This document shows positions 12,846-64,000 of a stretch of 64,000 bases of DNA, in pieces; the first letter of the stretch is position 1; every line of letters begins with the position of its first letter. The notes beneath the pieces were generated by a model. The model was not told where the DNA came from, ran no database searches, and worked only from the letters and a program-made list of their open reading frames with translations. The stretch spans positions 682,001-746,000 of the forward strand of contig NZ_CP120737.1 of the NCBI RefSeq assembly GCF_029581195.1, given 5' to 3'. Source of the stretch: Solwaraspora sp. WMMD791. Its GTDB lineage: Bacteria; Actinomycetota; Actinomycetes; Mycobacteriales; Micromonosporaceae. The translations under genes were made by a program, and so were the position numbers.

Positions 12846-12860
12846 GCCGGTCGAAAGCGG

Positions 12861-15204: not shown

Positions 15205-15208
15205 CGGG

Positions 15209-16780: not shown

Positions 16781-16857
16781 GAAAACAACGTCCCTGGTCG
16801 GCTGGGCTTTGTCACGCGAATGTCATAGTCGAGATACCCGGTGGAACCGTTGACTTG

Positions 16858-16875
16858 ATACCGGCTGGTCGGTAC
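16858..16875. promoter_or_regulatory. TetR-type operator upstream of the ABC-importer operon
   Basis: ATACCGGCTGGTCGGTAC has arms TACCG/CGGTA around a 6-bp centre. It is 70 bp upstream of the substrate-binding-protein start and would control the long plus-strand operon 16945-29131. Confidence 0.75.
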
Positions 16876-16944
16876 TTTGTGGCGAACGTCACCGGCACGT
16901 CACGCGGTGGCATGAACGGGTCCATCGCTGTGAAGGACACCCCG

Positions 16945-34072: not shown

Positions 34073-34087
34073 AAACGAGGAGTGGTC

Positions 34088-38815: not shown

Positions 38816-38829
38816 CCTAAGGAACCGCC

Positions 38830-39801: not shown

Positions 39802-39810
39802 GGCGCGGTC

Positions 39811-40794
39811 GTGAAGTTCGGCATCCTCCTCGATCACCAGTACGAGCTCGGCGACGATCTGCAGCGGCGGATCGGGGAGACGATCGAGTACGTCCAGCAC
39901 ATCCGCGACCTCGGCTACGACTCGGTGTTCGGCATCCACCACTATCTGTCGTCGCTGGCCACACCGCAGCCGATGCCGCTGCTGAGCCGGCTCGTCGAAC
40001 ATTCCGGCAGTATGCAGATCGGTACCGGCATCCTCATCCTGCCCCTCGGACATCCGGTGCACTGGGCCGAGGAGATCGCCACGATCGACCAGATGTCCGG
40101 CGGCCGGTTCGTCCTGGGCATCGGCTCCGGCTACCGCGACGCCGAGTTCTCCTCCTTCGGTGTCGACCGGCGTACCCGGGTGTCACGGATGAACGAGGCG
40201 TTGGCGGTGATGCAGCAGTTGTGGACCGGTGAGCCCGTCCACCACGAGGGACGGCACTTCACCCTGGACGGGGTGCGGTGCAGCGTACTGCCGCGACAGC
40301 GGCCGCACCCGCCGGTCTGGGTCGGCGCCAACGGCCCGACCGGCATCGCCCGGATCGCCCGTCAGGGCCTGCCGTGGCTCGCCCCGTCCAACGTGCGTCG
40401 CAACTGGGCCGTCGGAAACCTGACCGAATACCGGCAGCTGCGCACGGCGGCCGGCTTCAGCGAGCAGGACGCGGTGTTCCCGATCCACCGGGACCTGTGC
40501 GTCGCGGACTCCGCCGACGCCGCGCACGCGATCGCCGGCGACGCGGTCCGCCGGTCCTACGGCGAGTACGTCCAGTACGGCATGGACTTCTTCGAGTCCC
40601 AGTGGGAGGCGATCAAGGAGAAGGCGCTCTTCTTCGGCTCTCCCGACGACATCGCCGCGAAGATCTCCGATTTCGCCGCCGCCGGCTTCAACCACTTCGT
40701 CTTCCGCGCCCAGTGGCTCGGCTTGCCGATCGAGCGGTCCGTCGAGATCGTCGAACGGTTCGCCCGCGAGGTCATGCCGAGGTTCCGGCGATGA
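39811..40794 (+). CDS. Luciferase-like (LLM) flavin-dependent monooxygenase 4
   Basis: 327 aa from GTG, 9 bp after the crotonase stop. MKFGILLDHQYELGDDLQRR, FGIHHYLSSLATPQPMPLLS, LILPLGHPVHWAEEIATIDQ and SGGRFVLGIGSGYRDAEFSS. Sister of LLM 3, most simply explained by duplication. Ends with a 4-bp overlap onto a small VOC gene. Confidence 0.9.
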   Translation: MKFGILLDHQYELGDDLQRRIGETIEYVQHIRDLGYDSVFGIHHYLSSLATPQPMPLLSRLVEHSGSMQIGTGILILPLGHPVHWAEEIATIDQMSGGRFVLGIGSGYRDAEFSSFGVDRRTRVSRMNEALAVMQQLWTGEPVHHEGRHFTLDGVRCSVLPRQRPHPPVWVGANGPTGIARIARQGLPWLAPSNVRRNWAVGNLTEYRQLRTAAGFSEQDAVFPIHRDLCVADSADAAHAIAGDAVRRSYGEYVQYGMDFFESQWEAIKEKALFFGSPDDIAAKISDFAAAGFNHFVFRAQWLGLPIERSVEIVERFAREVMPRFRR

Positions 40795-48302: not shown

Positions 48303-49469
48303 ATGCGCGTCGCCCTTGTCACCACGACTCAGCATGGTCACCTGAACCCCTATGTTCCGGTGGTCAATGCGCTCCGAGCTGCCGGCGGTGAGGTGACGCT
48401 GCTGCTGTTGTCGGCGGACGGCGGCGAGCTCGACCAGCAGCGTCGCCGCGCTGTCGGCACAGCGCACGTCCAGCTGATCGGGCAGGTCGAGATGGCACCG
48501 TGGAGTGGTGATCCGGCGAAGATCGGCCCGATGCTGCAGGCGTCGCCGGTGGCCGGTCAGACGGCTGACGCGATCGAAACGACCGCCCCGGACTTCGTGC
48601 TCCTCGATTCGCTGCCGGTCACGGCGTCGGCCATGGTCGGCGCGCAGCGCTCCGGTGTGCCGTACGGGATGATCTGGGCCAACCTGGGCGGGGTGTGCCC
48701 GCGCGAGCACCGACGGGGTCGCTGGCCGTACGACGAGCAGGTCGGCGACTATCTGACCCGGCACGGGGTGGCGTGGTCGACCCGGACCCATTCGGCGCGG
48801 TCGCCGATTCTCAATCTGATGCCGACGATTCCCGCGCTCGTCGGCGACGACGCGGTCACCGACGACGGCGTACAGCTCGTCGGCCTGCCCGGTGCGGCCG
48901 GGATCCGTGGCGACGAGGTCACCTTCGCGGAGCTGGACCGGCTCGACCCGGACCGTCCCGTGGTGTACGTCTCCTTCGGCACGATCTTCTACCGGCGGCC
49001 GGACCTGCTGCGCACGGTGATCACCGGAGCGGCGGCGACCGGTGCGCAGGTGATCGCTGCCGTCGGGGACCTGGCCGCTGAGCTCGCCCTGCCGGACGAC
49101 GTGCTCACCGCCCCGTACCTGCCGCAACGTGAGGTGCTCGAGCGCGCCGACGTGTTCGTCACCCACGGTGGGTACAACTCCGTGGCGGAGTCGATCCGGG
49201 CGGCGACGCCGATGCTGGTGATCCCGCTGGCGGTGGATCAGCCGATCCAGGCGTACTTCGTGGCCAGCGCGGGCTTCGGGACGGCGCTGGAGCCGGCCGA
49301 CGTGACCGCGCGGGCGGTCGCGGACGCGGTCGGCGATCTGCTTGATCCCGCCCGGCACTACCGGGCCCGGCTGCGCGCCGCGCAGCCGCAGTGCGGCGAT
49401 TCCGCCGTACGCACGGCGGAGTTGGTCCTCGGCACGGTCGAAGCGCTACAGCGAAGGGAGGAGCAGTGA
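48303..49469 (+). CDS. MGT-type (GT1 family) glycosyltransferase
   Basis: 388 aa from the ATG with CGGAG upstream. N-terminal acceptor domain opening MRVALVTTTQHGHLNPYVPV, and a C-terminal nucleotide-sugar domain with VYVSFGTIFYRRPDLLRTV, LPQREVLERADVFVTHGGYN and VIPLAVDQPIQAY, the GT-B signature of natural-product and macrolide glycosyltransferases. It would attach a sugar to a small molecule, possibly the product of the nearby assembly line. No deoxysugar genes are in the window, so the sugar could be a common one or be made elsewhere. Overlaps the Rieske gene by 4 bp. Confidence 0.87.
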   Translation: MRVALVTTTQHGHLNPYVPVVNALRAAGGEVTLLLLSADGGELDQQRRRAVGTAHVQLIGQVEMAPWSGDPAKIGPMLQASPVAGQTADAIETTAPDFVLLDSLPVTASAMVGAQRSGVPYGMIWANLGGVCPREHRRGRWPYDEQVGDYLTRHGVAWSTRTHSARSPILNLMPTIPALVGDDAVTDDGVQLVGLPGAAGIRGDEVTFAELDRLDPDRPVVYVSFGTIFYRRPDLLRTVITGAAATGAQVIAAVGDLAAELALPDDVLTAPYLPQREVLERADVFVTHGGYNSVAESIRAATPMLVIPLAVDQPIQAYFVASAGFGTALEPADVTARAVADAVGDLLDPARHYRARLRAAQPQCGDSAVRTAELVLGTVEALQRREEQ

Positions 49470-50776
49470 CGATCGAACTGCAGCGGCCGGTGGTCGACCC
49501 GATCGTCGTCGACGACCGCGAGCGTATGTCGTTCCGGGTGGATCGTCGTGCCTACACCGACGACGACCTGGCCGCGCTCGAAACGGCCAGGATCTTCGAT
49601 CGCTGTTGGCTGTACGTCGGGCACGAATCGGAGGTTCCGGGTCCGGGCTCCTACGTGGCTCGCGATGTCGGCGGGCGTCCGGTGGTGATGGCGCGCGGTT
49701 CCGACGGACTGATCCGGGTGTTCGCCAACAGCTGCACCCACCGGGGGGCACTGATCTGTTCGCAGTCGGCGGGGCAGACAAGATCGTTCCGGTGCCCGTA
49801 TCACGACTGGACTTTTTCCAACGAGGGTGACCTGGTCGGGGTCCCGATCCCGGACGGGTACGGGCCCGGTTTCCGCAAAGCGGACTTCGGTCTGGCACAG
49901 CATCGCAGTGACAGTTACCGCGGTTTCGTGTTCGTCACCTTCGATCAGCGGCAGCCGCTCACCTTGACCGAATACCTGGCGGGTGCGGCCGAGTACCTCG
50001 ACCTTCTCGACGACCAGTCCGAGGTCGGAATGGAGGTGATCCAAGGTGCGCAACTGCACGGGGCGCGGGCCAACTGGAAGCTCATGATGGAGAACAGCGT
50101 CGACATCTACCATTTCCGGGCCCTGCACAAGCGGTACGTCGGCTACATGGAGTCGCTCGGGTCGGTGCCACCACGACGACGAGGCGGTTTCGGCCGCGCC
50201 CTCGGCCTTGGACATGGCGCCAACGAGCTGCCGCCGGCGGCAGCCCGCCCGCTCGCGTACTGGACGCCGATGTTCAGTCCCGAGGTCCGGCCACGGATCG
50301 AGGCGACGGCCGCCCGGTTCGTCGACCGGTTCGGCGCCCAACGCGCCGAACGCATCACCAGCACCAACCGGGCGGTGCTGATCTTTCCCAACCTGATGAT
50401 CATCGACGCGATCGCCATCACGATCCGCAAGATCGATCCGGTCGGCGCCGGCCGGATGGCCATCACCTCGGTCGCCCTGGCCCCGAAGGACGAGGATCCG
50501 CAGATCAGGGAACTCCGTAAGAGCCACTACCTGACGTTCCTCGGCCCTGCCGGCTTCGCCACCCCCGACGACATCGAGATCATCGAATCCTGCCAGCGAG
50601 GCTATCTCAACCGTACGGTCCGCTACTCGGACCTGTCCCGAGGCATGAACAAGGCGGTCCCGGAGACGACCGACGAGCTCCCCGCCCGCGAGTTCTGGCG
50701 GCAGTGGGACCGGCTGATGCACGGCGACGCCGGGCACCTCGAGATCGCTCACCCGGCCGAGACGCAAGGGGCGTGA
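49466..50776 (+). CDS. Rieske aromatic-ring-hydroxylating oxygenase, alpha subunit
   Basis: 436 aa from GTG with GGGAGGAGCA upstream. Rieske cluster ligands C90/H92 and C110/H113 (SCTHRGALIC ... CPYHDW); the catalytic domain has the bridging Asp and iron His residues in ENSVDIYHFRALHKRY. The usual size and layout of a ring-hydroxylating oxygenase large subunit. It needs electrons from a ferredoxin/reductase not found in the window. Coupled with a beta subunit, and translated with a glycosyltransferase, it is plausibly a tailoring hydroxylase of the cluster; degradation of an aromatic compound is the alternative. Confidence 0.92.
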   Translation: MTIELQRPVVDPIVVDDRERMSFRVDRRAYTDDDLAALETARIFDRCWLYVGHESEVPGPGSYVARDVGGRPVVMARGSDGLIRVFANSCTHRGALICSQSAGQTRSFRCPYHDWTFSNEGDLVGVPIPDGYGPGFRKADFGLAQHRSDSYRGFVFVTFDQRQPLTLTEYLAGAAEYLDLLDDQSEVGMEVIQGAQLHGARANWKLMMENSVDIYHFRALHKRYVGYMESLGSVPPRRRGGFGRALGLGHGANELPPAAARPLAYWTPMFSPEVRPRIEATAARFVDRFGAQRAERITSTNRAVLIFPNLMIIDAIAITIRKIDPVGAGRMAITSVALAPKDEDPQIRELRKSHYLTFLGPAGFATPDDIEIIESCQRGYLNRTVRYSDLSRGMNKAVPETTDELPAREFWRQWDRLMHGDAGHLEIAHPAETQGA

Positions 50777-51294
50777 CCACAGTGACCACCGAGCTGACGG
50801 TCGACGACACGGTCCAGATGCGGATGTGGCATCGGGTGAGCCAGTTCCTCTTCCGCGAGGCGCGGCTGCTCGACGAGTGGCGCCTGCGCGAGTGGTACGA
50901 CGAGATGCTCACCGACGACGTCCGCTACCGCGTGCCGGCCACCGACGTACGGGGCGGGCCGGTCGACGCGCTCGCGCTCGTCGACGACGACGCCGCCCGA
51001 CTGCGCCAGCGGATCGAACAACTCCTCAACGGTGAGGTGTGGTGCGAGAATCCCCGGTCCCGCACGAACCGGATCATCAGCAACGTGGAGATCCTGACCG
51101 ACCAGGGCAGCCACCTCGAGGTGACGGCGAACCTCGTCGTGTACCGGTTCGGGCACGGGCGATCGGACGCCTACGTCGGAAAGTACCGGTCCGAACTCGT
51201 CGTCGAGGAGGAGTCCTTCCGGATCCGCCGACGGCTCGTGGTGCTCGACCACGAGACGTTGTACGACCACGGCAAGCTCAGCATCATCCTGTGA
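50773..51294 (+). CDS. Ring-hydroxylating oxygenase, beta subunit
   Basis: 173 aa from the GTG overlapping the alpha-subunit stop (a GTG at 50782 is possible). Cystatin/NTF2-like small-subunit pattern: VSQFLFREARLLDEWRLREW, YDEMLTDDVRYRVPATD, then SRTNRIISNVEI and FRIRRRLVVLDHETL. It stacks on the alpha subunits and has no redox centre. Stop is followed by a long hairpin. Confidence 0.92.
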   Translation: MTTVTTELTVDDTVQMRMWHRVSQFLFREARLLDEWRLREWYDEMLTDDVRYRVPATDVRGGPVDALALVDDDAARLRQRIEQLLNGEVWCENPRSRTNRIISNVEILTDQGSHLEVTANLVVYRFGHGRSDAYVGKYRSELVVEEESFRIRRRLVVLDHETLYDHGKLSIIL

Positions 51295-51303
51295 CCGTCC
51301 GGT

Positions 51304-51347
51304 GACGACGGTCGGGGCCGGCGGTACCCGGCCCGGCCGCCGTCGTC
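51304..51347 (+). terminator. Two-part stem-loop between the Rieske beta subunit and the CMD-family gene
   Basis: Outer arms GACGACGG (51304-51311)/CCGTCGTC (51340-51347) enclose inner arms GGGCCGG (51315-51321)/CCGGCCC (51328-51334) with a 6-nt loop. Starts 10 bp after the beta-subunit stop; a terminator or an mRNA-stabilising attenuator within the cluster. Confidence 0.62.
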
Positions 51348-51372
51348 CGGGCCTACACCGAGGAGCTGATCG

Positions 51373-51765
51373 ATGAACCAGCCGTCCGCCCGACGCGAGC
51401 GGGGCGAGGCCATGTTCCATCAGGTATTCGGCCGCGAACCGCGCCCAGGTTCCTATCCGGAGTTCCTGCAGATCACCGTCGACCACTTGTTCGGCGAGAT
51501 CTGGACCCGCCCGCACCTGAGCGTCGAGGAGCGTGAACTGGTCGCGCTGACCGCGGTCACCCTGGCACGGACCGACTGGGAGTTGCGTGGACACATCGGC
51601 GCTGCCCTGCACCTCGGGATGACGCGGGAGAAGATCGTCGAAGTCATCATCCAACTCGCCTACTACGGCGGCTGGCCGGTCGCCAACAACGGCCTGCGCG
51701 TCGCCCAGGAGGTCTTCGCCGAGTTGGACGGCGCCACCGACAGGGACGCCGACCATGACCAATGA
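51373..51765 (+). CDS. Carboxymuconolactone decarboxylase (AhpD-like) family protein
   Basis: 130 aa; ATG with GAGGAGCTGATCG upstream. Typical CMD features: RERGEAMFHQVFGREPRPGS at the start, SVEERELVALTAVTLARTDW and GMTREKIVEVIIQLAYYGGW. The CxxC of peroxidase-active AhpD proteins is absent, so it belongs to the gamma-carboxymuconolactone decarboxylase-like side. These proteins decarboxylate lactones or act on quinone-like substrates in polyketide pathways. Overlaps the next gene by 11 bp. Confidence 0.85.
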   Translation: MNQPSARRERGEAMFHQVFGREPRPGSYPEFLQITVDHLFGEIWTRPHLSVEERELVALTAVTLARTDWELRGHIGAALHLGMTREKIVEVIIQLAYYGGWPVANNGLRVAQEVFAELDGATDRDADHDQ

Positions 51766-52300
51766 ACCGTCCCCCCTCGACCCGGCGGAGAAGGTCGACC
51801 TGTGGCGCCAGCGGTTCTTCGAAGCCCAGGCCGCCGCCGAGGAGTTCATCCTGGCCGAGTACGGCGACGACGGGTTGGCGGCGTGGATCCAGGCGAACTC
51901 CCGCATCACCGCCGACCTGCTGCAATCGCAACGGCCCGCCGGGGTGTCCGCCACCGATCACTTCATGATCCGGCTGCATCGTCAGCTGCAGCTGTACGAC
52001 TCGGCGGTGACCAGCGAGCCCGAGCCCTCGGGCATCGTTCTGCGCAACGCCGACTGTGGAATCCTGCGCTACCGCAAGCGGGCCGCCCGCGCCGGCGTCG
52101 TCCTGACGTTCTCGTCACCGTGCCCGTACTGCCAGCAGCTCAACACCGCGATCGCCGCCCGGTACGTGGAACCGGAGGTGACGGTGTCGTGCGAACAGGC
52201 CGGTGACGGATGCACCTGGCGGGCGGAGTCCCCGAACTCCCCGGGTCAGGGGGAGGACGGCCCGGCCGGGTCACCGCACCGGGGCCGGACCGGTGCCTGA
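51755..52300 (+). CDS. Unrecognised Cys-containing protein in the biosynthetic cluster
   Basis: 181 aa, not assigned to a family. A helical N-terminal half (KVDLWRQRFFEAQAAAEEFI, then HFMIRLHRQLQLYD) precedes a C-terminal half with six Cys: NADCG, SPCPYCQQLN, VTVSCEQ and GDGCTW. The Cys spacing could make a metal- or disulfide-stabilised site; the last ~20 residues are disordered-looking. Overlaps the CMD-like gene by 11 bp, so co-translated with it, and its last 55 bp overlap the convergent FMN reductase gene. A function tied to the CMD-like enzyme or Rieske system is only a guess. Confidence 0.68.
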   Translation: MTNEPSPLDPAEKVDLWRQRFFEAQAAAEEFILAEYGDDGLAAWIQANSRITADLLQSQRPAGVSATDHFMIRLHRQLQLYDSAVTSEPEPSGIVLRNADCGILRYRKRAARAGVVLTFSSPCPYCQQLNTAIAARYVEPEVTVSCEQAGDGCTWRAESPNSPGQGEDGPAGSPHRGRTGA

Positions 52301-52899
52301 ACCACCGGCAGCACGGTGCGGCCGGCCGCCGGTGACCGGCGTGCGTCGAGCGTCATGCCGACCTGCCGGCCCACGGCCACACACAGGTCGACCGCGGCGG
52401 TGCGGGTCAGGTCCGCATGCTCGTTCTGGGTGAAGCACGCCGACGCCACGTTCCTGTTCCGCAGCCGTAGGTACCACGGGAACAACGAGCCCAGTGCCGG
52501 CTCGGTCAGCATCGTGCGCGAGTGCACGATCGTCCCCACCAGCAGGTTGCCGAACGGGCGGTGCTCGGCGTTCATGAAGCTCTTCAACCGCTCCTGGAAG
52601 ATCTTCAGCACCGCCGGCACGTTCCCCGCGTACACCGGCATGGCGAGCAGCATCGCCTGCGCACCTGCGGCGAGCTCCACGACCTGCTCGAAGTCGTCGT
52701 CGAGCGTGCACCGGCCCACCTCGGGATCCAGGCAGGTGTCCTCGCCCTCGCACATGGCGATGCGGTGGTCGATCAACCGGATGCGCTGGATCCGCGCGTC
52801 GCGCACCTCCCGGACGACGCCGGTGACCGCCGCCTCGAGCAGCGCGTCGGTCAGCGACGGAAGCCGCTTCTGTGTGCAGGACAAGGCGACGATCTTCAC
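52246..52899 (-). CDS. NADPH-dependent FMN reductase / flavodoxin-like protein
   Basis: 217 aa from GTG at 52899 with GAGGAGG upstream. It begins MKIVALSCTQKRLPSLTDAL (phosphate-binding loop of the flavodoxin-like fold), has a Cys-rich stretch MCEGEDTCLDPEVGRC as in the NADPH:FMN reductase/iron-sulfur flavoprotein group, and AMLLAMPVYAGNVPAVLKIF for FMN binding. Its start overlaps the stop of the condensation gene, so it is part of the megasynthase operon. It is the natural supplier of reduced FMN to the luciferase-like domain of the megasynthase (inference from co-transcription and chemistry). Confidence 0.85.
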   Translation of the reverse strand: MKIVALSCTQKRLPSLTDALLEAAVTGVVREVRDARIQRIRLIDHRIAMCEGEDTCLDPEVGRCTLDDDFEQVVELAAGAQAMLLAMPVYAGNVPAVLKIFQERLKSFMNAEHRPFGNLLVGTIVHSRTMLTEPALGSLFPWYLRLRNRNVASACFTQNEHADLTRTAAVDLCVAVGRQVGMTLDARRSPAAGRTVLPVVQAPVRPRCGDPAGPSSP

Positions 52900-54401
52900 A
52901 CCAGTGACCTCCTCAGCTCGGCGAGCGGACGGTGCGCGCCGCCGCACGCCGTGGCCAGCAGGTCGACGTACCCGGTCATCCAGCGGCGGGCGGTGCCGTC
53001 GGCGAGCCGGTCCACCGGGTACTCCAGATAGCCGTCGATCCCGCCCGGGCCGGGCACCAGGGCGATCACCAGCACCGACCGGGCCGCACCGGTCGGCAGG
53101 TCGTGGACCCGTACGGTCAGCCCGGGCAGTGCGACGTCCGTGTCGAGAGTGTTCTGGAACGCGAAGCTCACCCCCATCGCGCTCGGCGCGGAGCCGGCTG
53201 CCGGCACGGGAACCTGCCGGTAGATCCAGGCCGTGGGCAGCAGGTTGTCGATGCCGGCGAACAGGCCGTCGGCGGCCTGACCGACCAGTTGGGCGAACGT
53301 CACGGCGGCGGCCGTACGGATCCGCACCGGCAACGCCGTCGCCAGCACCGTGACGGTGTCCTCGTACGCCTGTGGTGACCGGTTGGCGTACGGCATCGAC
53401 AGGGTGACGTCGGGCTGCCCGCTGAGCCGGGCGAGCAGGAGCGCCAACGCTGCCGCGGTCACCGCGGTCACCGTGACGCCCCGCTCGCGGGCGAGCGCCT
53501 CGACGGCGAGTCGCACCGGCCGGGGGATCTCGAACCGGCAGGTGGCGGCCTGCCCACTCGGCTGTCGCGGTGCGGGGCGGTCGAACGGCAGCTCCAGCGC
53601 CAGCGGCCCGTCGCCGAGGTGCTCGGCCCAGTAGGCGAGCCGTCGACGCCGGGTCGACTCGTCCCACTGGCCCTGCTGCCAACGTGCGTAGTCGGTGCAC
53701 TGGGCGGTGGCGGGTGGGCCGAAGTCCGGCGAGCCGTGGTCGCGCGCGGTGCGGTACCCGACCGCCAGCTCGCGCAGCAGCACGGTGACCGCCCGGCCGT
53801 CGCAGGCGACGTGGTGCAGGACCAGGACCAGCCAGGACTCGCCCGGCGCGAGCCGGATCAGGGTGTACCGTACCGGTGCCTCGTGCGCCAACGTGAACGC
53901 CGACGCCACCAACTCCTGGCAGACCGCCCCGGCCCGGCACCGCGCCGTGTCCGGCGCCAGCGCGGTCAGCTCCACGACGGGCAGCGGAACCGACCGGTGG
54001 GCGAGGATCCGCTGGGTCCAGATACCGCCGTCGCAGGTCAGCCGGGTGCGTAGCGCGTGGTGCCGGGCGACGAGGCCGTCGAGTGCGGCGTCCAGCGCGG
54101 CGACATCGAGGTCACCGAGCAACTCCACCCGCAGCCCGACGTTCCAGCTGGCGGGGTGCGCGCTGCGCCCGGCGACCTCCATCACCCGCTCCTGCTGGGC
54201 CGACAGCGGCGCCCGCGTCACCTCGCGTTCGTCCGCCGGTGCGGCGAGCCAGCGCAACAGCTCGCCTTTGTACGACCGCAGCGCGGTGACCAGCTCCGCA
54301 CCCATCGCGGCGGCCGGGGCGTCGTAGTGCAGGACGTCGCCGGTGCCGGTGAGCCGCACGTCGTGTACGGCGAGGTACTCCAGCAGTTCGTCGAAGGTCA
54401 C
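52896..54401 (-). CDS. Stand-alone NRPS condensation protein with N-terminal TubC docking domain
   Basis: 501 aa from GTG overlapping the megasynthase stop. Residues ~2-52 (MTFDELLEYLAVHDVRLTGT, then ELVTALRSYKGELLRWL) match the TubC-type docking domain that receives an upstream NRPS subunit. Residues ~63-490 are a condensation domain with the catalytic HHxxxDG intact (LHHVACDG; H196, H197, D201, G202). No adenylation, carrier or thioesterase domain follows. It is expected to dock on the PCP end of the 3001-aa protein and join the chain to a free amine, another carrier-bound unit or water, so it may act in release. Which of these is unknown. Confidence 0.87.
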   Translation of the reverse strand: MTFDELLEYLAVHDVRLTGTGDVLHYDAPAAAMGAELVTALRSYKGELLRWLAAPADEREVTRAPLSAQQERVMEVAGRSAHPASWNVGLRVELLGDLDVAALDAALDGLVARHHALRTRLTCDGGIWTQRILAHRSVPLPVVELTALAPDTARCRAGAVCQELVASAFTLAHEAPVRYTLIRLAPGESWLVLVLHHVACDGRAVTVLLRELAVGYRTARDHGSPDFGPPATAQCTDYARWQQGQWDESTRRRRLAYWAEHLGDGPLALELPFDRPAPRQPSGQAATCRFEIPRPVRLAVEALARERGVTVTAVTAAALALLLARLSGQPDVTLSMPYANRSPQAYEDTVTVLATALPVRIRTAAAVTFAQLVGQAADGLFAGIDNLLPTAWIYRQVPVPAAGSAPSAMGVSFAFQNTLDTDVALPGLTVRVHDLPTGAARSVLVIALVPGPGGIDGYLEYPVDRLADGTARRWMTGYVDLLATACGGAHRPLAELRRSLV

Positions 54402-57400
54402 AGCGCGCCCCGTACCCGGTGGGTGGAGTCGTCGTCGACGGCGGCACGTACGAGGGCCGGCAGCGCGGCCGTGACGGTGCCGCGAAGTCGGCCGACCATC
54501 GCGGCGATGGTCGGCGCGCGGAAGAACTCCAACGCCGGATAGTCCACCGCCATGGCCTCGCGTACCCGGTTGAGCAGGCGCATCGCGTTGATCGAGTGTC
54601 CGCCGAGGGTGAAGAAGGACACCTCGTGGTCGATGCGGCGGGGATCCTGGTCGAGCTCGGCGGCCCACAGCGCCCGTACCGTCTCGGCCAGCGCGTCACC
54701 GGCCGGTTCGCCTGCGGCTGCCGGCGGGGCTGGCGGCGGTGGTGTCGGCTGCGGCGTCAGTGGCGCGGGCATGCCGGTGCGGATCGTCGGTTCCGGCAGC
54801 CCGGCGTGGTCGACCTTGTTGTTGCCGGTCTGCGGCAGCGCGGACAGTACCGCCCATGTCCGGGGAATCAGCACGTCGGGCAGTTGGCGGGCCAGCGCGG
54901 CGACGAGCCGGTCGGCCAACCCGTCGTGAGCCACGCCCGGCGCGGGCACGACGTACCCGGCGAGGTATGCCTCGTCGTGCCGGTCCCGCCGGGCCACCAC
55001 GACGCCGTCGGCCACCAGGTCCAGCCCGCGCAGCACCGCCGACGTCTCGCCTGGTTCGACCCGGTTCCCCCTGATCTTGACCTGGTCGTCGGTGCGTCCG
55101 AGGAACACCAGCGCTCCATCGGCGGTCCACCGCACCAGGTCACCGGTGCGGTAGCAGCGGGAACCGGGGCCGCCAGCCGGGTCGTCGACGAACCGCTGCG
55201 CGGTCAGTTCGGGCCGGTTCAGGTAGCCGCGACCCACCCCGGCGCCGCCGATGAACAGCTCACCGACGGCACCGACCGGGGCCAGGTTGCCCCACTCGTC
55301 GCGGACCTCGACGCGGACGTTGTCCAATGGCCGGCCGATCGGAATCGGTCCGTCGGCCCCGGCCGACGCCTGCGCCACCACCTCGGACGTGGCGATGACC
55401 GTCGTCTCGGTCGGTCCGTACACGTTGCGCACGACGTACGGCACCCCGGGCTGTGGGCGTACCCGCAGCTGCTGGCCGCCGACGGTGAGGTGGCGCAGCC
55501 GGGGCTGGGCCGCGACGGGCAGCGAGAGCAGGCCTTCCCCGATCGGCGTGGGCAGCATCGCGACGCTGACCCCGGCGGTACGTAGCCAGCGCGCCAGCGC
55601 CATCGAGTCCAGCCGTACGGCGTCGTCGGCGATCGTCAGGCTCGCGCCGACCTGCAGCATCGGCCAGATCTCCAGCATCGAGGCGTCGAAGCTCTGCCCA
55701 CACACCACGGCGCCACGGTCGTCGGCGGTCAGCGCCAGCTCGTCGCGGTACCACCGGCACAGGTTCGACACGCCGCGGTGAGTGATCACCACCCCCTTGG
55801 GCCGGCCGGTCGAGCCGGAGGTGTACATGAGATAGCAGGCCGCGTCCGGATCGTCCGCCACGCGGCCAGGGTCGCCGTACCCGTCGCCGGATTCGTCGAC
55901 CCGCAGCAGGTGCACCCCGTCGGGCAGGTCCGGTGCCGCGTCAGCTCCGGTGGCCAGCACCACCCGGACGGCGCTGTCCGAGACCATGAAGCGCACCTGC
56001 CGGCCGTCGAGGGACGGATCCAACGGCAGGTACGCGGCACCGGCGCGCAGCACCGCCAGGGCGGCCACGATGAACTCCGGCGACCGGGGCAGCCACAGCG
56101 CCACGATGTCGCCCACGGCGACGCCGTGCCGGGCCAGCCGGTGCGCCAGCACGCTGGCCTGCTCGTCGAGTTGCCGGTAGGTCAGCACTGTGCCGCCGCC
56201 GATCACCGCGACCGCCTGTGGGGTGCGGACCGCCCACTGCCGCACCGCGTCGTGCACGCCGCCGGGCGGCAGGTCGCGGTGCCGTCCTACGCTCCGGGTA
56301 GCCAGGAAGTCCCGGTCGGTGTCGAGGACGCCGGCCAGCACCGAGATCCGCGCGTCGGGCTGCTCGACGGCGGCGGCCAGGGTCGCGACCAGGTACGACA
56401 GCAGTCGTTCGGCGCTGTCCGCCGCGAACACGTCGGTGCTGTACTCCAGCCGGCAGTCGATGCCGTCGGGGTGGTTGGTGACGTAGAGCGCCAGGTCGGT
56501 CACCGCCCGTTCGGCCCGGTGTGCCAGGGTGCGGGCGGTCACCTGGGGCAGGTCGAGCGGGAGCGGGTCGCCGCTGTTGTCGAACTCCACGATGGTCTGG
56601 AAGACCGGGGTCCGGCTGGGGTCACGGTCCGGGCTCACCGCACCGACGACGGCGTCGAACGGTACGTGGGCGTGGCTGTACGCGTCCAGGGCGGTGTCGC
56701 GGACCTGCGTGAGCAGGTCGGCGAAGGTCGGATCGCCGGACAGGTCCAGTCGCAGGGCGACCGTGTTGAGGAAGAACCCGACCACGTTCTCGGCACCGGA
56801 GGGCCGGACCGACACCGGCGTCCCCACGATCAGCTGGTCGCTGCGGGTGAACCGGCGCAGGGTGGCCGCGTACCCGGCGAGCATCGTCATGAACAGGGTG
56901 CTCCGGTGTGCGCCGCTGAGCCGGCTCAGCAGCCCGGACAGGCGCGGGTCGAGCCGGCGGCGGACCGACGCGCCGGCGCCGGACCGTACCGGCGGTCGCG
57001 GCCGGTCGGTCGGCAGGTCCAGCACCGGCAGCTCCCCGGCCAGCCGCTCCCGCCAGTAGGCCAGGCCGGCCTGCTCGTCGCGTGGACCGCCGTCGGCGTC
57101 CGCTTCCCGACGGGCCAGGTCCAGGCAGTCCACGGTGAGTTCCGGCAGCTCGGCGGGTCGGCCGTCGAGCGCGGCCCGGTACGACGCGGACAGGTCCCGG
57201 GCAAGCACCGTCATCGAGGCCGCGTCGACCACGATGTGGTGCAGCGACAGCACGAGCACGTGCCGCTCGGGCGACCAGCGCAGCAACCGGGTCACCAGCA
57301 GCGGGCCACGGGCGAGGTCGAACACCCGGCGGACCTCGTCGGCCAGCACCTGACGGACGGCCTCGTCCTCGTCACGGCCGTTGTGTTCCTCGACGGTGAG

Positions 57401-60400
57401 CTCCACCACGCCCGAGCCACGCACGACCTGGACCGGTTCGCCGTCGCGTTGCGGGAACACGGTACGCAGCGCCGGATGCCGGGCCACCAGCTGGTCCAGT
57501 GCGGCCCGCAGCGCCGGCACGTCCAGTGGCCCGTCGAGCCGTACGGCGATGGGCTCGTTGTAGGTGCCCTGGCCCGGATGCAACCGTTCGAGGAACCACA
57601 TCCGCGCCTGCCCGCGTGACACCGGCCCGGACCGGTCCGGGAGGACATCGCGGGCGGCCGGGGCGGCACGGGCCGCCGCCTGGCCGACCGAGATCTGGTA
57701 GCTGGCGCGTAGCCGGTCCAGATACGGCAGGCCCGCCCGTACCTGTTCGGGGGAGGCACCGAAGTCGACCAACGCGGCCACCTCGTCGACCCCGGCGGCG
57801 GTCAGCGCCTCGATCAGCCGGGCGCCGTCGTCCGGCGAACCGATCAGCGCCCGCGCCTCGCAGTACCGGTCGTAGGCGCGCCGGAACACGTAGTCCAGGT
57901 CGTCGGCGTCGGCGTTGTCGAGGTCCACCCGGAGTCCGAGGCTGTTGGTCAGCTGCCCGAACAGCGACAACGAGGACCGCAGGTACGCCTGCAACGGCGC
58001 GAACGCCTCGGCCCGCGCTCGGGCCGAGTCCGCACCGAGGTAGGTGTGCACGAGGACGACCACCCGGCCACCGTCCGGGTCGAGCCCGTGCGCGGCGCGG
58101 GTCTTACGGTAGCGCCGGATGTTGTCGGCCAGCTGCTCCACCGACTGGCTCATCAGGTTGGTGACCACGCCGAGGTCGTGTTCGGCGGCCCGCTGGTACG
58201 ACTCCGGGTTGCCCACCACGGCGACGAACATCGGCGGCGTCGCCTGCACGGGGCGGGGCAGGGTGCGGACCTCGACCGGTTCGCCGGTGCCGCTGCGGCG
58301 TTCGACCGCCTCCCCGCGCCACAGTCGGCGTACCTGGTCGAGGTGGCGGTACATCACGTCGCGGTGGGTGCCGAAGTGCTCGGGCGCGAGGACGAAGTCG
58401 CCCGCGTGCCAGCCGGGCGCGCAGCCGATACCGACCCGGCCACCGGAGAGCCGGTCGACCATCGCCCATTCCTCGGTGACCCGGATCGGATCGTGCAGCG
58501 GCAGGACCACCGATCCGGCGTGCAACCGGATCCGACTCGTCTCGCGGGCCAGCGCCGCGGCCAGCACCACCGGGTTGGGGAACACCCCACCGAAGGAGTG
58601 GAAGTGACGCTCGGGTATCCACAGCGCGTGGAATCCGTGCTGGTCGGCGAAGCGGGCCGTGTCGACGATCAGCTCGTACGGGTCGGCGGCCTCCGAGCCC
58701 GGCGGATAGTCCCCGAAGAAGTACACACTGAAGTCCGGTGCCCGGAGCGCGGTACCACTCGCCGATTCGGGGCCGCCCGCCGCGACGACACTCGTCGTCG
58801 GTTCGGTTCGCGCCGTCGGCCCGGGTAGGGAGGTGCCTGCCGATCTCGGCGCGGGTACGGCGGCACCGGGCGGGCGGGGGAGCAGCCCGTCGGCGCGCAT
58901 CTGACGCAGCGAGTCGCGCACCGCCTCGATCACCGTGTCGACGTCGTCGTCGGTGTGCGCGGTGGAGAGGAAGAAGTTGCGCCACTCCCAGACGTACACG
59001 CCCTTGAGCAGCAGGTGGTGGTAGAGAAGCTCGAGGTCGGCGTGGTGTTCGAAGCGGAACTGCGAGCCGACGTGGCCGAGCCGCAGCGGGTACTCCTCCT
59101 CGGTGAAGAAGGAGTTCAGTGTGTTGACGAGCCGGTCGGTCCGGGCGTTGAGCTCCTGCTGCAGTCGTGGGCTGTGCGCGGTCAACCGGGTCAGCACCGC
59201 GCGGGCGGCGGCCATGGACACCGGGTGCTGGATGTAGGTGCCGCCGAAGAAGGTCGTCTCCCGCTGCGGTCGGCTGTCGTCGCCGTAGCGCCAGAAGCCG
59301 CCGTCGACGCCGTCCATGATGTCGGCGCGTCCGGCGATCGCCCCGATCGGGAAGCCGCCACCGAGCAGCTTGCCGTACGTGGCGAGGTCCGGCGTCACGC
59401 CGAACAGGCCCTGGGCGCCACGCGGATGGGGTCGGAACCCGGTCAGCATCTCGTCGAACATCAGCACGATGCCGTACCGCTGGGTGATGTCGCGGAGTCG
59501 GCGCAGGAACTCCGTCGGCTGCAGCGACGGGTGCCGGCTCTGCACCGGCTCGACCACGACGGCGGCGAGCCGTTCGCCGAGCGCCTCGATCACCTGCAGG
59601 CTCTCCGGTACGCCGTAGTCGAGCACGACCAGGTCCGCGACGGCACTGGCCGGGATGCCGGTGCTGACCGCGACAGTGCTCCGGTCCGCTCCGGTCCCGA
59701 CCGAGCGGCCGAGCACGTTGTCGGCATGCCCGTGGTACGACCCGTGGAACGTGACGATCGTGTCGCGTCCGGTGGCGGCCCTGGCGAGTCGGATCGCGGC
59801 CGAGTTGGCCTCGGTGCCGGAGTTGGCGAACGCCACGCGCGGCATCCCGGTCAGCTCGCTCAACAGCCGCGCGGCCTCACCCGTGTCGACGCTGCGGGGT
59901 CCGAGCTGGATCCCCCGGGACAGGTGTTCGCGGACCGCGTCGGCGACGAAGTCCGGCTCGTGGCCGAACAGGAGTACCCCGAAGCCCATCGTGATGTCGA
60001 TGTACCGGTTGCCGTCCACGTCCTCCAGCCACGCGCCCTTGGCGCGCTGGCCGGCGATCGGGTACAGCATCTCCTTCGTGGCGCTGCGGAAGCCGACCAC
60101 CGCCCGGCTGTCGGCCAGCACACCGCGGTAGCGCTGGGCGATCTCCTTGGACCGCCGGGTCTTTGCCACGAACCGTTGCCGCAGGTCGTCGAGGTGGGCC
60201 TGAGCGCGGTCGCCGGCGAGGGCCCCGACCTGACCGGCGTCGTGCGCCACGACCACCCTGGGCCCGTGCACGTCGACGCTGGGCGCCGCCGCCTGTCGCG
60301 GTGGTGGTGCCGGTGGCGACGTCGGTGCCGGTGGGTCAGCCGCAGCTGGTTCGGCGGCCGGGGCCCGACGGGACAGGATCAGGCGGGACAGCTTGCCCGC

Positions 60401-63400
60401 GGTGTCGGCTTCCTCGAACAGTTCGCGCATGGCGAGCCGGATACCGAACTCGCCCTCGAACTCCCGCAGCGCGTTGATCATGGCGAGTGAGTCGGCACCC
60501 ATCTCGACGAACGGGCGGTCGACGACGATGTCGTCCGACGCGCAGCCGAGGTGCCGGGCAATGATCTCGCGTACCCGCTCGACCACCGGCGCGAGGTCCG
60601 GCGCGGTCGGTCCGTCGGAGATCGCGGAGCCAGCGTCGCGGGCGGTGTCAGTGTCGACCATCGACCCTCCAGGTTCGGTTCGTGCCAGCGGCGGTCCGGT
60701 CCAGTGGATCCGTCGCTGGAACGGGTAGGCGGGCAGCGGTATCCTGCGTGCGCGCCCGGCGCCGAGCAGCGCTTCCCAGTCCAGGTCGACCCCGTGTGCG
60801 TACAGCTGGGCGCAGCTGTCGAGGTGCTGGTCGAGCTCCGCGCCCCGGCGCTGCGCGGCGAGCACCGGCGATCCGGGCAGGGCGCGGCGCAGCAACCCGA
60901 CCAGGCCCGGATGCGGCCCGACCTCCAGCACCGGCACACCGGTCGGTGCCCCAGGGTCCGACCCGTCGGCTGCCGCGGCGGCGACCGCGGCCGTGACCAG
61001 GTCGAACCGGACCGGTAGCCGGGTCTGCCGCACCAGGTACGCCGGATCCGGCCGGTGCCCCACCGGCAGCACGGCTCCGTCCACGCTGCTGACCAGCGGC
61101 GTCTGCAAGGGTCGCCACCCGACCGCCTCAGCCGCCTCACCCAGCCGGTGCAGGATCGGGTCGAGCAGCGCCGAGTGGAAGGCGCGGTCGACGGCGAGTC
61201 GCTGCCAGCGCCACCCGAGGCGGTCCAGCAGCGTGCACGCGGCGTCGATCGCCTCGACCGGCCCGGCGACGACCTGCTGCTCGGGCGCGTTGGTCGCGGC
61301 CAGGTCGAGCCGTCCATCGGTGGCGAGCAGTTCGTCGACCGCGGCACGGCTGGCGAAGACCGCGACCATCCCCCCGGGCGCGGTGTGCTCGCGCATCAAC
61401 CGTCCGCGCAACCCGGTCAGCCGCAGGCCGTCCTCGACCGACAGCGCACCGGCCGCCGCCAGGGCAGCGTACTCGCCGATGCTGTGGCCGGCGACGAGCC
61501 GCGGCGCCACCCCGAGCGTGTGCCACAGCCGGGTCAGCGCGGCCTGGAACGCGAACAGCGCCGGCTGCGCCACGTCGGCCGGCCAGATCCGGTCGTCGCC
61601 GTCGGCGGCGGTGGCGAGCAGTGGCGTCAGCACCGACGGCCCGCCGGTGCGGCGCTGGTACGCCTCGCAGGCGTCGAGCACCTCCCGTACCTGCGGGTAC
61701 TTCCGGTAGAGCGGAGCTGCCATGCCGGCGTACGAGGTGCCCTGCCCGCCGTAGACCAGGACCGGGGCCACCGGGCCCGGTGCCGACCCGGCCGCCACCC
61801 GCGCCGGACGGTGCCGCTGCGGTGCGGCGAGGTGGTCGTCCAGCGCCTGTGCGAGCGCCGTCGGCGTCGCGCCGGTCACGACGAGCCGGTGCGGCAGGTG
61901 CGGCCGGCCGAGCGCGGCGGTGGTGGCGAGGTCGGCCGGATCGAGCTCGGGATCGGCCAGCAGGTGGTCGCGCAGCCGCCGGGCGAGTGTGTGCAGGCTG
62001 TCCGGGTGGTGCGCCGACAGCGGCACCGCCACCGGTTCTGCCGGTGGCGGTGGCGGTGTCCCTGCCGGTGGTGGTGCCTCCAGGATAAGGTGGACGTTGG
62101 TGCCGCCGACCGCCAGCGCGGTCACCCCCGCCCGACGCGGGCCTGGCAGGTCGGGCCAGTCACGCACTGCGGTCGGGATGACGAAGGGGCTGGCCGCCAG
62201 GTCCAACGCCGGGTTGGGGCGCTCGAACCCGACCAACGGCGGAATCTGCCCGTGCTGCAGCACCAGCACCGCCTTGATCAGGCCGGCCAGACCGGCGCAG
62301 GCGTCCAGGTGCCCGATGGCCGGCTTCGCCGAACCGATCGCGCAGTAGCCGGTCCGGTCGGTGTGCCGGCGGTAGGCCGAGGTCATGGCGTCGAACTCGA
62401 TCGGGTCACCCTTGTAGGTGCCGGTGCCGTGGGCCTCCAGGTAGCCGATCGTCTCGGGGGAGACCCCGGCGACGTCGAACGCGCGCAGGATGGCGTCGCG
62501 CTGCCCGGCGGCGCTCGGTGCGGCGTAGCTGGTCTTCGTGGCACCGTCGTTGTTGACGCCGCCGCCCAGGATCACCGCGTGGATGGTGTCGCCGTCGGCG
62601 ACCGCCCGGTCGTACCGCTTGAGCAGCACCGCCGCGACCCCGTTGCCGCCGACGGTGCCGTCGGACGACGCGTCGAACGCCCGACACCGGCCGGACCGCG
62701 ACAGGATGGTGCCCTTTACGTGGCGGTAGCCCAGGATCTGCGGGGTGTGCACCGCCGAGGCGCCGGCCAGGGCCAGGTCGGCGTCGCCGGCGAGCAACGC
62801 CTGTCCGGCCAGGTGCACCGCCACCAGGGCCGTCGAGCAGCCACTCTGTACGGTGACCGCCGGACCGGTCAGGCCGAGCCGGTACGCGACCCGGGTGGCG
62901 GCGAAGTCGTTGAAGTTGCCCAGGGCCACCTGGAACGCCGGGCCGAAGTCACCGTCCCAGCGGGCGGTCGGCAGGTTGTTGCGCAGGTACGTGTTCAGCG
63001 GATACAGGTGGTATCCGACCCCGGCGAAGATGCCCACCCTCGCGTCGGGTCGCGCGCCCGCGTATCCGCCGTTCTCCAGCGCGTGGTAGCAGGTCTGCAG
63101 GAACAGCCGGTGCTGCGGATCGACGGTGCGCGCCTCCTGCGCGCTCATCCCGAAGAACTCCGCGTCGAACGAGTCGATGTCGTCGAGCACGCCGCTGACG
63201 GCGACGAAGTCCGGTGACTCACGCAGCTCGGCCGGCACCCCGGCGCTGGCCAGCTCGGTCGGGCTGAACCGCCGTACGCTGGTCACGCCGTCGCGGATGT
63301 TGCGCCAGTACGCCTGCGGCGTGTCCGCGCCAGGTAGCCGTAACGCCATACCGATGATGGCGATCCGTCGGTCGTCGGCGCCCCCGCGCGTCGGCATGCT

Positions 63401-63403
63401 CAT
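54398..63403 (-). CDS. Hybrid PKS-NRPS megasynthase, KS-AT-ACP-AMT-LLM-C-A-PCP
   Basis: 3001 aa from the ATG at 63403, which overlaps the MFS gene stop (ATGA). Order: KS ~12-440 (Cys189 in SGCSTAL, His325 in EAHGTGT, His365); AT ~545-880 (Ser641 in GHSIGEY; AFHS motif, so malonyl-CoA); ACP ~935-1012 (Ser972); class-III PLP aminotransferase ~1090-1505 (Lys1345 in ATYGKLLGG), as in mycosubtilin and microcystin systems; luciferase-like FMN monooxygenase ~1555-1905 of the MupA/Atu3671 kind; condensation ~1925-2370 (LHHIVVDAA); adenylation ~2385-2840 (MYTSGSTGRPKG); PCP ~2900-2970 (Ser2937 in GGHSI). No KR, DH or TE. A beta-ketoacyl unit should be transaminated to a beta-amine, oxidised, then joined to an amino acid. 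The A-domain pocket reads D-A-L-M-L-V-V-V-I-K by eye, hydrophobic and not assigned. Confidence 0.93.
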   Translation of the reverse strand: MSMPTRGGADDRRIAIIGMALRLPGADTPQAYWRNIRDGVTSVRRFSPTELASAGVPAELRESPDFVAVSGVLDDIDSFDAEFFGMSAQEARTVDPQHRLFLQTCYHALENGGYAGARPDARVGIFAGVGYHLYPLNTYLRNNLPTARWDGDFGPAFQVALGNFNDFAATRVAYRLGLTGPAVTVQSGCSTALVAVHLAGQALLAGDADLALAGASAVHTPQILGYRHVKGTILSRSGRCRAFDASSDGTVGGNGVAAVLLKRYDRAVADGDTIHAVILGGGVNNDGATKTSYAAPSAAGQRDAILRAFDVAGVSPETIGYLEAHGTGTYKGDPIEFDAMTSAYRRHTDRTGYCAIGSAKPAIGHLDACAGLAGLIKAVLVLQHGQIPPLVGFERPNPALDLAASPFVIPTAVRDWPDLPGPRRAGVTALAVGGTNVHLILEAPPPAGTPPPPPAEPVAVPLSAHHPDSLHTLARRLRDHLLADPELDPADLATTAALGRPHLPHRLVVTGATPTALAQALDDHLAAPQRHRPARVAAGSAPGPVAPVLVYGGQGTSYAGMAAPLYRKYPQVREVLDACEAYQRRTGGPSVLTPLLATAADGDDRIWPADVAQPALFAFQAALTRLWHTLGVAPRLVAGHSIGEYAALAAAGALSVEDGLRLTGLRGRLMREHTAPGGMVAVFASRAAVDELLATDGRLDLAATNAPEQQVVAGPVEAIDAACTLLDRLGWRWQRLAVDRAFHSALLDPILHRLGEAAEAVGWRPLQTPLVSSVDGAVLPVGHRPDPAYLVRQTRLPVRFDLVTAAVAAAAADGSDPGAPTGVPVLEVGPHPGLVGLLRRALPGSPVLAAQRRGAELDQHLDSCAQLYAHGVDLDWEALLGAGRARRIPLPAYPFQRRIHWTGPPLARTEPGGSMVDTDTARDAGSAISDGPTAPDLAPVVERVREIIARHLGCASDDIVVDRPFVEMGADSLAMINALREFEGEFGIRLAMRELFEEADTAGKLSRLILSRRAPAAEPAAADPPAPTSPPAPPPRQAAAPSVDVHGPRVVVAHDAGQVGALAGDRAQAHLDDLRQRFVAKTRRSKEIAQRYRGVLADSRAVVGFRSATKEMLYPIAGQRAKGAWLEDVDGNRYIDITMGFGVLLFGHEPDFVADAVREHLSRGIQLGPRSVDTGEAARLLSELTGMPRVAFANSGTEANSAAIRLARAATGRDTIVTFHGSYHGHADNVLGRSVGTGADRSTVAVSTGIPASAVADLVVLDYGVPESLQVIEALGERLAAVVVEPVQSRHPSLQPTEFLRRLRDITQRYGIVLMFDEMLTGFRPHPRGAQGLFGVTPDLATYGKLLGGGFPIGAIAGRADIMDGVDGGFWRYGDDSRPQRETTFFGGTYIQHPVSMAAARAVLTRLTAHSPRLQQELNARTDRLVNTLNSFFTEEEYPLRLGHVGSQFRFEHHADLELLYHHLLLKGVYVWEWRNFFLSTAHTDDDVDTVIEAVRDSLRQMRADGLLPRPPGAAVPAPRSAGTSLPGPTARTEPTTSVVAAGGPESASGTALRAPDFSVYFFGDYPPGSEAADPYELIVDTARFADQHGFHALWIPERHFHSFGGVFPNPVVLAAALARETSRIRLHAGSVVLPLHDPIRVTEEWAMVDRLSGGRVGIGCAPGWHAGDFVLAPEHFGTHRDVMYRHLDQVRRLWRGEAVERRSGTGEPVEVRTLPRPVQATPPMFVAVVGNPESYQRAAEHDLGVVTNLMSQSVEQLADNIRRYRKTRAAHGLDPDGGRVVVLVHTYLGADSARARAEAFAPLQAYLRSSLSLFGQLTNSLGLRVDLDNADADDLDYVFRRAYDRYCEARALIGSPDDGARLIEALTAAGVDEVAALVDFGASPEQVRAGLPYLDRLRASYQISVGQAAARAAPAARDVLPDRSGPVSRGQARMWFLERLHPGQGTYNEPIAVRLDGPLDVPALRAALDQLVARHPALRTVFPQRDGEPVQVVRGSGVVELTVEEHNGRDEDEAVRQVLADEVRRVFDLARGPLLVTRLLRWSPERHVLVLSLHHIVVDAASMTVLARDLSASYRAALDGRPAELPELTVDCLDLARREADADGGPRDEQAGLAYWRERLAGELPVLDLPTDRPRPPVRSGAGASVRRRLDPRLSGLLSRLSGAHRSTLFMTMLAGYAATLRRFTRSDQLIVGTPVSVRPSGAENVVGFFLNTVALRLDLSGDPTFADLLTQVRDTALDAYSHAHVPFDAVVGAVSPDRDPSRTPVFQTIVEFDNSGDPLPLDLPQVTARTLAHRAERAVTDLALYVTNHPDGIDCRLEYSTDVFAADSAERLLSYLVATLAAAVEQPDARISVLAGVLDTDRDFLATRSVGRHRDLPPGGVHDAVRQWAVRTPQAVAVIGGGTVLTYRQLDEQASVLAHRLARHGVAVGDIVALWLPRSPEFIVAALAVLRAGAAYLPLDPSLDGRQVRFMVSDSAVRVVLATGADAAPDLPDGVHLLRVDESGDGYGDPGRVADDPDAACYLMYTSGSTGRPKGVVITHRGVSNLCRWYRDELALTADDRGAVVCGQSFDASMLEIWPMLQVGASLTIADDAVRLDSMALARWLRTAGVSVAMLPTPIGEGLLSLPVAAQPRLRHLTVGGQQLRVRPQPGVPYVVRNVYGPTETTVIATSEVVAQASAGADGPIPIGRPLDNVRVEVRDEWGNLAPVGAVGELFIGGAGVGRGYLNRPELTAQRFVDDPAGGPGSRCYRTGDLVRWTADGALVFLGRTDDQVKIRGNRVEPGETSAVLRGLDLVADGVVVARRDRHDEAYLAGYVVPAPGVAHDGLADRLVAALARQLPDVLIPRTWAVLSALPQTGNNKVDHAGLPEPTIRTGMPAPLTPQPTPPPPAPPAAAGEPAGDALAETVRALWAAELDQDPRRIDHEVSFFTLGGHSINAMRLLNRVREAMAVDYPALEFFRAPTIAAMVGRLRGTVTAALPALVRAAVDDDSTHRVRGAL

Positions 63404-64000
63404 GCCGGTGCCCGCCGGCGGGTCCACAGCACGGCCAGGAACGCCGTTGCCAACAGCACCGCCACTCCGTGGAACACGGTGACCACGGTCAACGGGCTGA
63501 GCCGCTCCAGCAGAAAGGAGCAGGCGACCATGCCGACGCCGAAGCCGAGGTTCTCCGCGGTGGCCGAGAACCCGAAGACGTACCCGCGCTGATCGTCCGG
63601 TGCGGCCTGGAGCCGGGTGGTGTAGGCGATCTCGGTGAAGCCGTCGGCGATGCCGGCGGCCAGGGCGGCCAGGGCGGCCAGCGGGAGCGGCGGCGCGGTG
63701 AAGGCGAGGATGAACGCCACCGACATGATCGCCGCGCCGGCGGCGAACGCGCGCTCGTTGATGGTCCGACCGGTGCGCCTGGCCCAGCGGGCGACCGCGC
63801 GTTGCGCGATGATGTTGCCGATCGCCCAGATGGCCCAGAACTGCGACATGAACGCGGCTGGATGCTGTGGGTCGAGCAGAGTGGACAGCACCGGTAGGCC
63901 GACGTTGTGCGAGGCCGAGCCGAACGCGTCGACGGCGCGCAGGCTGACCAGTGCGAGCAGGATCGGGGTCAGCCGAAGGTAGCGCAGGGCCGTCAGCTGC
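63400..64000 (-). CDS. MFS transporter, C-terminal part (5' end outside window)
   Basis: The frame is open to the window edge, giving the last ~200 residues: about five to six membrane segments, e.g. FAAGAAIMSVAFILAFTAPP and VVTVFHGVAVLLATAFLAVL, with WARRTGRTINERAF as a basic cytoplasmic loop and ALAAGIADGFTEIAYTTRLQ. The second half of a 12-TM major facilitator. Its stop overlaps the megasynthase ATG, so it is the first visible gene of the biosynthetic operon and likely exports or confers resistance to the product. Confidence 0.85.
   Translation of the reverse strand, partial: QLTALRYLRLTPILLALVSLRAVDAFGSASHNVGLPVLSTLLDPQHPAAFMSQFWAIWAIGNIIAQRAVARWARRTGRTINERAFAAGAAIMSVAFILAFTAPPLPLAALAALAAGIADGFTEIAYTTRLQAAPDDQRGYVFGFSATAENLGFGVGMVACSFLLERLSPLTVVTVFHGVAVLLATAFLAVLWTRRRAPA

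Follow-up and report, generated by a model that had tools for sequence, protein, structure and literature searches.

What would be made by an assembly line in which an aminotransferase is followed directly by a flavin-dependent monooxygenase, and in which order would the two domains act? The question is raised by a gene (54398..63403, minus strand) in the stretch of DNA analyzed here (64,000 nucleotides, the window), which corresponds to positions 682001-746000 of the complete, single-contig 6.93-Mb genome of Solwaraspora sp. WMMD791; sequence to the right of the window was also examined. The gene encodes a megasynthase that combines a polyketide synthase (PKS) module with a nonribosomal peptide synthetase (NRPS) module. 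We consider it quite likely that this is a single-pass PKS-NRPS of the PuwE/microginin kind, in which carbon 2 of the acyl unit would be hydroxylated, the beta position then aminated, the chain released by a condensation domain, and the product exported. Judging from the sequence, that product is very probably a small peptide beginning with a hydroxy-amino acid.

Domains and catalytic motifs of the megasynthase

A first-pass annotation had read the order ketosynthase (KS), acyltransferase (AT), acyl carrier protein (ACP), aminotransferase (AMT), luciferase-like monooxygenase (LLM), condensation (C), adenylation (A), and peptidyl carrier protein (PCP) in this one chain; Pfam, NCBIfam, and the motifs bear it out. 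The open frame covers 54398..63427 (minus strand), with a GTG start at 63427 and an alternative ATG at 63403; the ATG overlaps the stop of the upstream exporter gene by four bases (ATGA), which supports it as the start and a length of 3001 amino acids. The Pfam matches run ketoacyl-synt (N and C), Acyl_transf_1, PP-binding, Aminotran_3, Bac_luciferase, Condensation, AMP-binding, AMP-binding_C, and PP-binding; every match exceeds its own curated cut-off, and the second PP-binding stretch was positioned by its GGHSINAM motif.

All of the domains lie on the minus strand, and the catalytic motifs examined are intact: the KS (62225..63370) has its active cysteine in QSGCSTAL, together with HGTGT and GHLDACAG; the AT (60878..61759) has the active serine in GHSIGEYAAL and also AFHS; the ACP (60377..60580) has the serine of GADSLAM; the class III AMT (58883..60130) has TYGK; the LLM (57707..58732) has PERHF; the C domain (56309..57625) has HHxxxD in the form HHIVVDAAS; the A domain lies at 54815..56242; and the PCP (54494..54694, ends approximate) was placed around the serine motif GGHSINAM. 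AFHS is the sign of a malonyl-type AT. No ketoreductase (KR), dehydratase, enoylreductase, or thioesterase is among the 12 Pfam families found in the megasynthase, in agreement with the earlier description of a malonyl-type AT and no KR. The lysine that binds pyridoxal phosphate (PLP) is residue 1353 counted from the GTG and 1345, the number given before, counted from the ATG; it aligns with TYGK of the solved mycosubtilin AMT (6kfm), the best solved match to this domain (423 bits over the whole domain). The domain scores, and seven relatives that share the domain order with 75-90% identity, exclude chance.

The LLM belongs to NCBIfam TIGR04020, the MupA/Atu3671 family of LLMs dependent on flavin mononucleotide (FMN), scoring 453.8 bits where the cut-off is 244.45. 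As a control, the same model gives matches in ten of 14 well-known genomes, above the cut-off in none of the 14; the luciferase-like fold is itself common, with PF00296 matching 20 times in this genome. The best solved match to the LLM is PuwE (6ket), with 395 bits over 344 residues, and the next best scores 93 bits. The features of a PuwE-type module are thus present: the domain order in one protein, a TIGR04020-family monooxygenase, and a class III AMT with its PLP lysine. AMT and LLM had been regarded at first pass as known only separately, in a pathway that might be undescribed; PuwE and five cyanobacterial loci carry the same pair in the same order, so this claim of novelty falls.

Order of oxidation and amination

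In the proposed route, the KS would accept an acyl starter provided in trans and carry out one malonyl extension. The LLM, using FMNH2 from a flavin reductase (best candidate, the FMN reductase encoded in the same putative operon), would hydroxylate carbon 2 of the ACP-bound beta-keto thioester, and the AMT would swap the beta-ketone for an amine to give a 2-hydroxy-3-amino acyl unit. C-A-PCP would couple this unit to one amino acid, probably hydrophobic; a separate protein with a TubC_N docking domain and a C domain would then dock and terminate synthesis, most probably by handing the chain to a small amine or a second nucleophile. A major facilitator superfamily (MFS) protein would export the product. 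This scheme keeps two proposals of the first-pass annotation: that a single acyl unit undergoes on-line amination and oxidation before being linked to one amino acid and, as one of the two oxidations it offered, hydroxylation at the neighboring carbon. From the pocket code of the A domain (DALMTGVVI) no amino acid can be predicted with confidence, and other members of the family have different codes; the code resembles one for tyrosine. Five A-domain code starts that were tried are absent from the main text of a paper on A-domain codes.

Oxidation probably precedes amination, the reverse of the sequence first suggested, by analogy with MupA of mupirocin synthesis. The cited part of the MupA study describes a carbon hydroxylase that needs its own ACP and a supplied flavin (FMN) reductase, and that hydroxylated only the beta-keto thioester on that ACP, leaving the beta-hydroxy analogue unchanged (PMC10952193). 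If the LLM of the window acts like MupA, it must work before the AMT removes the ketone.

That amination comes first, with the LLM then hydroxylating carbon 2 of a beta-amino acyl-ACP, seems unlikely, but it is the order in which the domains stand along the chain. An adjacency rule counting only AMT followed by LLM is satisfied by 48 of 80 loci (the best 80 of 106 confirmed loci from a scan of named genome contigs, genome_contigs), and the accounts of PuwE and floridanemamide, in the parts cited, leave the reaction order unfixed. However, a beta-amino thioester would lack an activated alpha carbon, the beta-hydroxy substrate was left unconverted by MupA (PMC10952193, in part), and the LLM is retained in assembly lines without any AMT.

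Such AMT-less lines include seven Streptomyces cassettes among the 80 loci (L110, L113, L115, L125, L126, L128, and L129). Their loci read KS-AT-ACP-LLM-C-A-PCP-C and contain no AMT homologue, and the cassettes are predicted to make 2-hydroxy-3-keto acyl products. Their A domains have pocket codes such as DVQFFAQII, near a proline pattern. A closer comparison comes from two genomes of one genus in the same order as the source genome, G149 and G143, whose synthases are 82% identical over 1113 positions before the AMT site and 80% identical over 1866 positions after it; the site itself holds about 522 residues in G149, which has the AMT, versus about 67 in G143. A search of four genomes for AMT homologues (E ≤ 1e-60) found one in G149 and none in G143, G041, or G013. 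On a tree of 90 LLM domains (94 extracted, four duplicates dropped; built by a quick method with SH-aLRT support only, and with some long branches), presence of the AMT changes six times, at least four of these changes being forced by starred branches, against a mean of about 23 when presence is shuffled. The AMT comes and goes as an optional insert next to the LLM. The occurrence of same-family LLMs in AMT-less lines argues for carbon-2 hydroxylation of a keto intermediate and against the other oxidation offered at first pass, N-hydroxylation of the new beta-amine.

N-hydroxylation by the LLM is very improbable. Nothing found in the analysis speaks for it; fabrubactin, the product tied to the other family namesake (Atu3671), contains N-hydroxyl groups. 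The cited part of the fabrubactin account says nothing of an LLM (PMC11837247). The rejection is based on the AMT-less relatives in the same kind of assembly line and leaves the chemistry of Atu3671 aside. In addition, the puwainaphycin unit bears a carbon-2 hydroxyl (PMC4219810, in part) and MupA hydroxylates carbon (PMC10952193, in part). A cryptic or decayed cluster that makes nothing is just as improbable: a literature search turned up no product tied to this actinomycete cassette, but the motifs are intact, three 4-base gene overlaps are preserved, and four of six other same-genus genomes carry the same synthase at 84-90% identity.

Several points weigh against hydroxylation of carbon 2 followed by amination. 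Fabrubactin, as just said, carries N-hydroxyl groups, and no product is known for the cassette. The LLM is likened to MupA through the family model, not through MupA's own sequence, and no column of the LLM alignment fully separates domains with an AMT beside them from those without. G143 lacks an A-KR-PCP loading region that G149 carries, and just after PERHF it has alanine versus aspartate in G149, so the pair is not a clean one-domain difference. The operon has no loading module or CoA ligase for the starter, and the FMN reductase is absent from the 80 loci, some of them short, and present in only one of 11 relatives' regions. Finally, a review of microsclerodermin, in the part cited, has the monooxygenase oxidize a beta-hydroxyl group to the ketone, which is then aminated (PMC6163206); the AMT and monooxygenase are drawn together there. 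This published reading differs from ours in the reaction but likewise places oxidation before amination. The order of the two reactions is directly testable, given the G149/G143 pair and an operon that is small and has its own FMN reductase.

Distribution and surroundings of the cassette

The 816-residue AMT-LLM stretch was searched against 151 genomes (the source genome and 150 relatives), and a pair was scored where one match, or two side by side, covered nearly the whole query. The pair occurs in one frame in at least ten of them (G000, G001, G004, G005, G006, G016, G042, G053, G072, and G149); another, G045, has a partial AMT match beside an LLM. Within the genus it is found in five of seven genomes, counting the source, and the best matches of the other two (G002 and G003) are far weaker. 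A draw of 396 genomes from the phylum yielded three with the pair at E ≤ 1e-150, the source included. Among the 80 loci, the 48 with an AMT directly before an LLM stand beside 25 with an AMT and no LLM (two of these, L094 and L096, end at a contig edge) and the seven with an LLM and no AMT.

Matches to all of MFS, KS, AT, ACP, AMT, LLM, C, A, and PCP are present in 32 of the 48 AMT-LLM loci, and 38 have a terminal C at the end of the line. Among the ten without one, seven are contigs of about 4-10 kb (L061, L062, L077, L078, L088, L091, and L093), and three (L075, L083, and L089) continue otherwise than by a terminal C. This C is fused to the PCP in 27 and separate in 24 of 51 judged entries, which include relatives' regions and further loci. 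Its frequency in relatives speaks for the stand-alone C of the window being the final component of the assembly line. No widely shared flanking gene besides MFS, megasynthase, and C was found (the commonest occurs in eight of 55 entries), and the cassette of these three parts recurs across Actinomycetota.

At least five of 243 genomes drawn from the order of a cyanobacterial relative (G628, G669, G675, G764, and G765) have an AMT beside an LLM in one frame. Their five loci read KS-AT-ACP-AMT-LLM-C, followed by an A domain in all but G669 (L165), where none was detected after the C. Other arrangements were seen: KS-AT-ACP-LLM without AMT in a cyanobacterial line of Scytonematopsis (L132); an LLM before the KS and an AMT after the ACP in cyanobacterial L133 (Chamaesiphon); and a TIGR04020 LLM inside an A domain (A-LLM-A) in L137, L138, and L139, from S. 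rimosus, S. griseofuscus, and Kitasatospora genomes, resembling insertions known from myxothiazol and melithiazol synthesis. An A-KR-PCP loading region lies upstream of the KS in G149 (L159), L063, L064, L065, and L069; it resembles the alpha-keto-acid loading described for Athmu residues (PMC13252402).

The megasynthase gene stands second in a row of four on the minus strand; adjacent genes overlap by 4 bases at all three junctions, and we infer that the four are transcribed as one operon. In order they encode the MFS exporter (63400..64692, extending past the right window edge at 64000; ATGA overlap with the megasynthase start), the megasynthase, the stand-alone condensation protein (52896..54401; GTGA overlap with the megasynthase stop), and an NADPH-dependent FMN reductase (52246..52899; GTGA overlap with the condensation gene). 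The condensation protein has an intact HHxxxD motif (HHVACDG), and its TubC_N domain scores 29 bits against a cut-off of 26. The four operon genes include no loading module, ligase, thioesterase, or extra ACP; AMP-binding ligases lie about 14-26 kb to the left, in a separate plus-strand gene group. To the right of the MFS gene, the product of a plus-strand frame matches WYL and helix-turn-helix domains.

Other neighboring frames were used only if backed by a family match or by conservation. Plus-strand genes at 49391-52300, heading towards the operon, encode a Rieske oxygenase large subunit (family match), a small subunit (assigned by position and size alone), and two small products. Among 11 relatives' regions examined, the genes of this group and the FMN reductase gene are shared only with the nearest relative, G006. 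The Rieske pair, a glycosyltransferase, the FMN reductase, and a carboxymuconolactone-decarboxylase-like gene (a name with no Pfam match behind it) were rejected as core members because G006 alone among the 11 shares them, and the reductase does not count as a constant member of the cassette. Queries with the Rieske, small-subunit, decarboxylase-like, and reductase proteins matched none of the 80 genome_contigs loci at E ≤ 1e-8, many of these loci being short (at most 10 kb on each side of the match).

Four plus-strand PF00296 luciferase-like stretches start at 34082, 35212, 37823, and 39811 (span 34082-40794; the third is 37823-38713), accompanied by acyl-CoA ligases, acyl-CoA dehydrogenases, an enoyl-CoA hydratase, and a short-chain dehydrogenase/reductase at 24.5-39.8 kb; one of the four has a 96% match in the region of G005. 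They were rejected as part of the same pathway on account of the opposite strand and these companions, and the group looks like a catabolic one, separate from the megasynthase.

Bestatin and other known systems

Some 2-hydroxy-3-amino acyl peptides inhibit aminopeptidases, microginins among them and bestatin as a drug example, which gives interest to a related line in a bestatin producer. The genome of Streptomyces olivoreticuli ATCC 31159 contains a locus (L082) reading MFS-KS-AT-ACP-AMT-LLM-C-A-PCP-C, with an AMT 77% and an LLM 64% identical to those of the window; its LLM is the only TIGR04020 match over the cut-off in that genome. The L082 line differs in being split before the AMT, with AMT to terminal C in one frame (9734-16921) and the terminal C fused. 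Upstream of it (L082:1891-3765, minus strand) lies a gene for a thiamine-diphosphate enzyme that could feed a phenylacetyl starter; this gene is not among the flanking genes common to five or more entries. A literature search turned up no bestatin gene cluster. A bestatin- or microginin-like product is plausible for the window. A wider proposal is tentative: the three-part cassette would be a general actinomycete machine for bestatin/amastatin-like inhibitors, with L082 as the bestatin synthetase (phenylacetyl, malonyl, leucine), the window's cluster as the source of an undescribed relative with another starter and amino acid, and natural gain or loss of the AMT switching between 2-hydroxy-3-amino and 2-hydroxy-3-keto products, hydroxylation always coming first.

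MupA resembles the LLM in name, as a TIGR04020 member, and an FMN reductase gene is present in the window operon also; MupA is a stand-alone trans enzyme in a trans-AT PKS, and its step involves no AMT. Mycosubtilin synthase subunit A (6kfm/6kfr) is homologous throughout the AMT, with the PLP lysine aligned, and is not known to have an LLM after it. The iturin family lacks the 2-hydroxyl, according to the part of the source cited (PMC4219810). The features of a terminal C of the rhabdopeptide (RXP) type are present: a stand-alone C, a TubC-type docking domain, and an intact HHxxxDG. In these and in its place at the line end the condensation protein is like Kj12C of rhabdopeptide synthetase, which transfers the peptide mostly to phenylethylamine (PMC6195595).

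In the part of the account cited, microginin synthetase (mic) combines malonyl extension with amination to give 2-hydroxy-3-aminodecanoic acid (Ahda) in short peptides that inhibit aminopeptidases; it differs in a fatty-acid starter activated by a ligase and in two to six further NRPS modules, and no monooxygenase is named there; the likeness is one of description (PMC12250027). The floridanemamide and tychonamide pathways, as excerpted, likewise associate AM and OX domains with a 3-amino-2-hydroxy motif. PuwE, from the puwainaphycin pathway of Cylindrospermum alatosporum, is described in the cited part of its source as a PKS module, AMT, monooxygenase, and NRPS module in one protein, proposed to form the 3-amino-2-hydroxy acyl unit that puwainaphycin carries (PMC4219810). 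It shares the domain order and a homologous LLM with the window; according to the same excerpt, it receives its starter from a separate fatty-acyl ligase and ACP, and its chain continues to more NRPS modules, whereas the window operon has no loading enzyme and its line ends in a stand-alone C (PMC4219810). The architecture is therefore already known, and the present locus extends the cyanobacterial PuwE-type AMT-monooxygenase module to a compact, recurrent actinomycete cassette.

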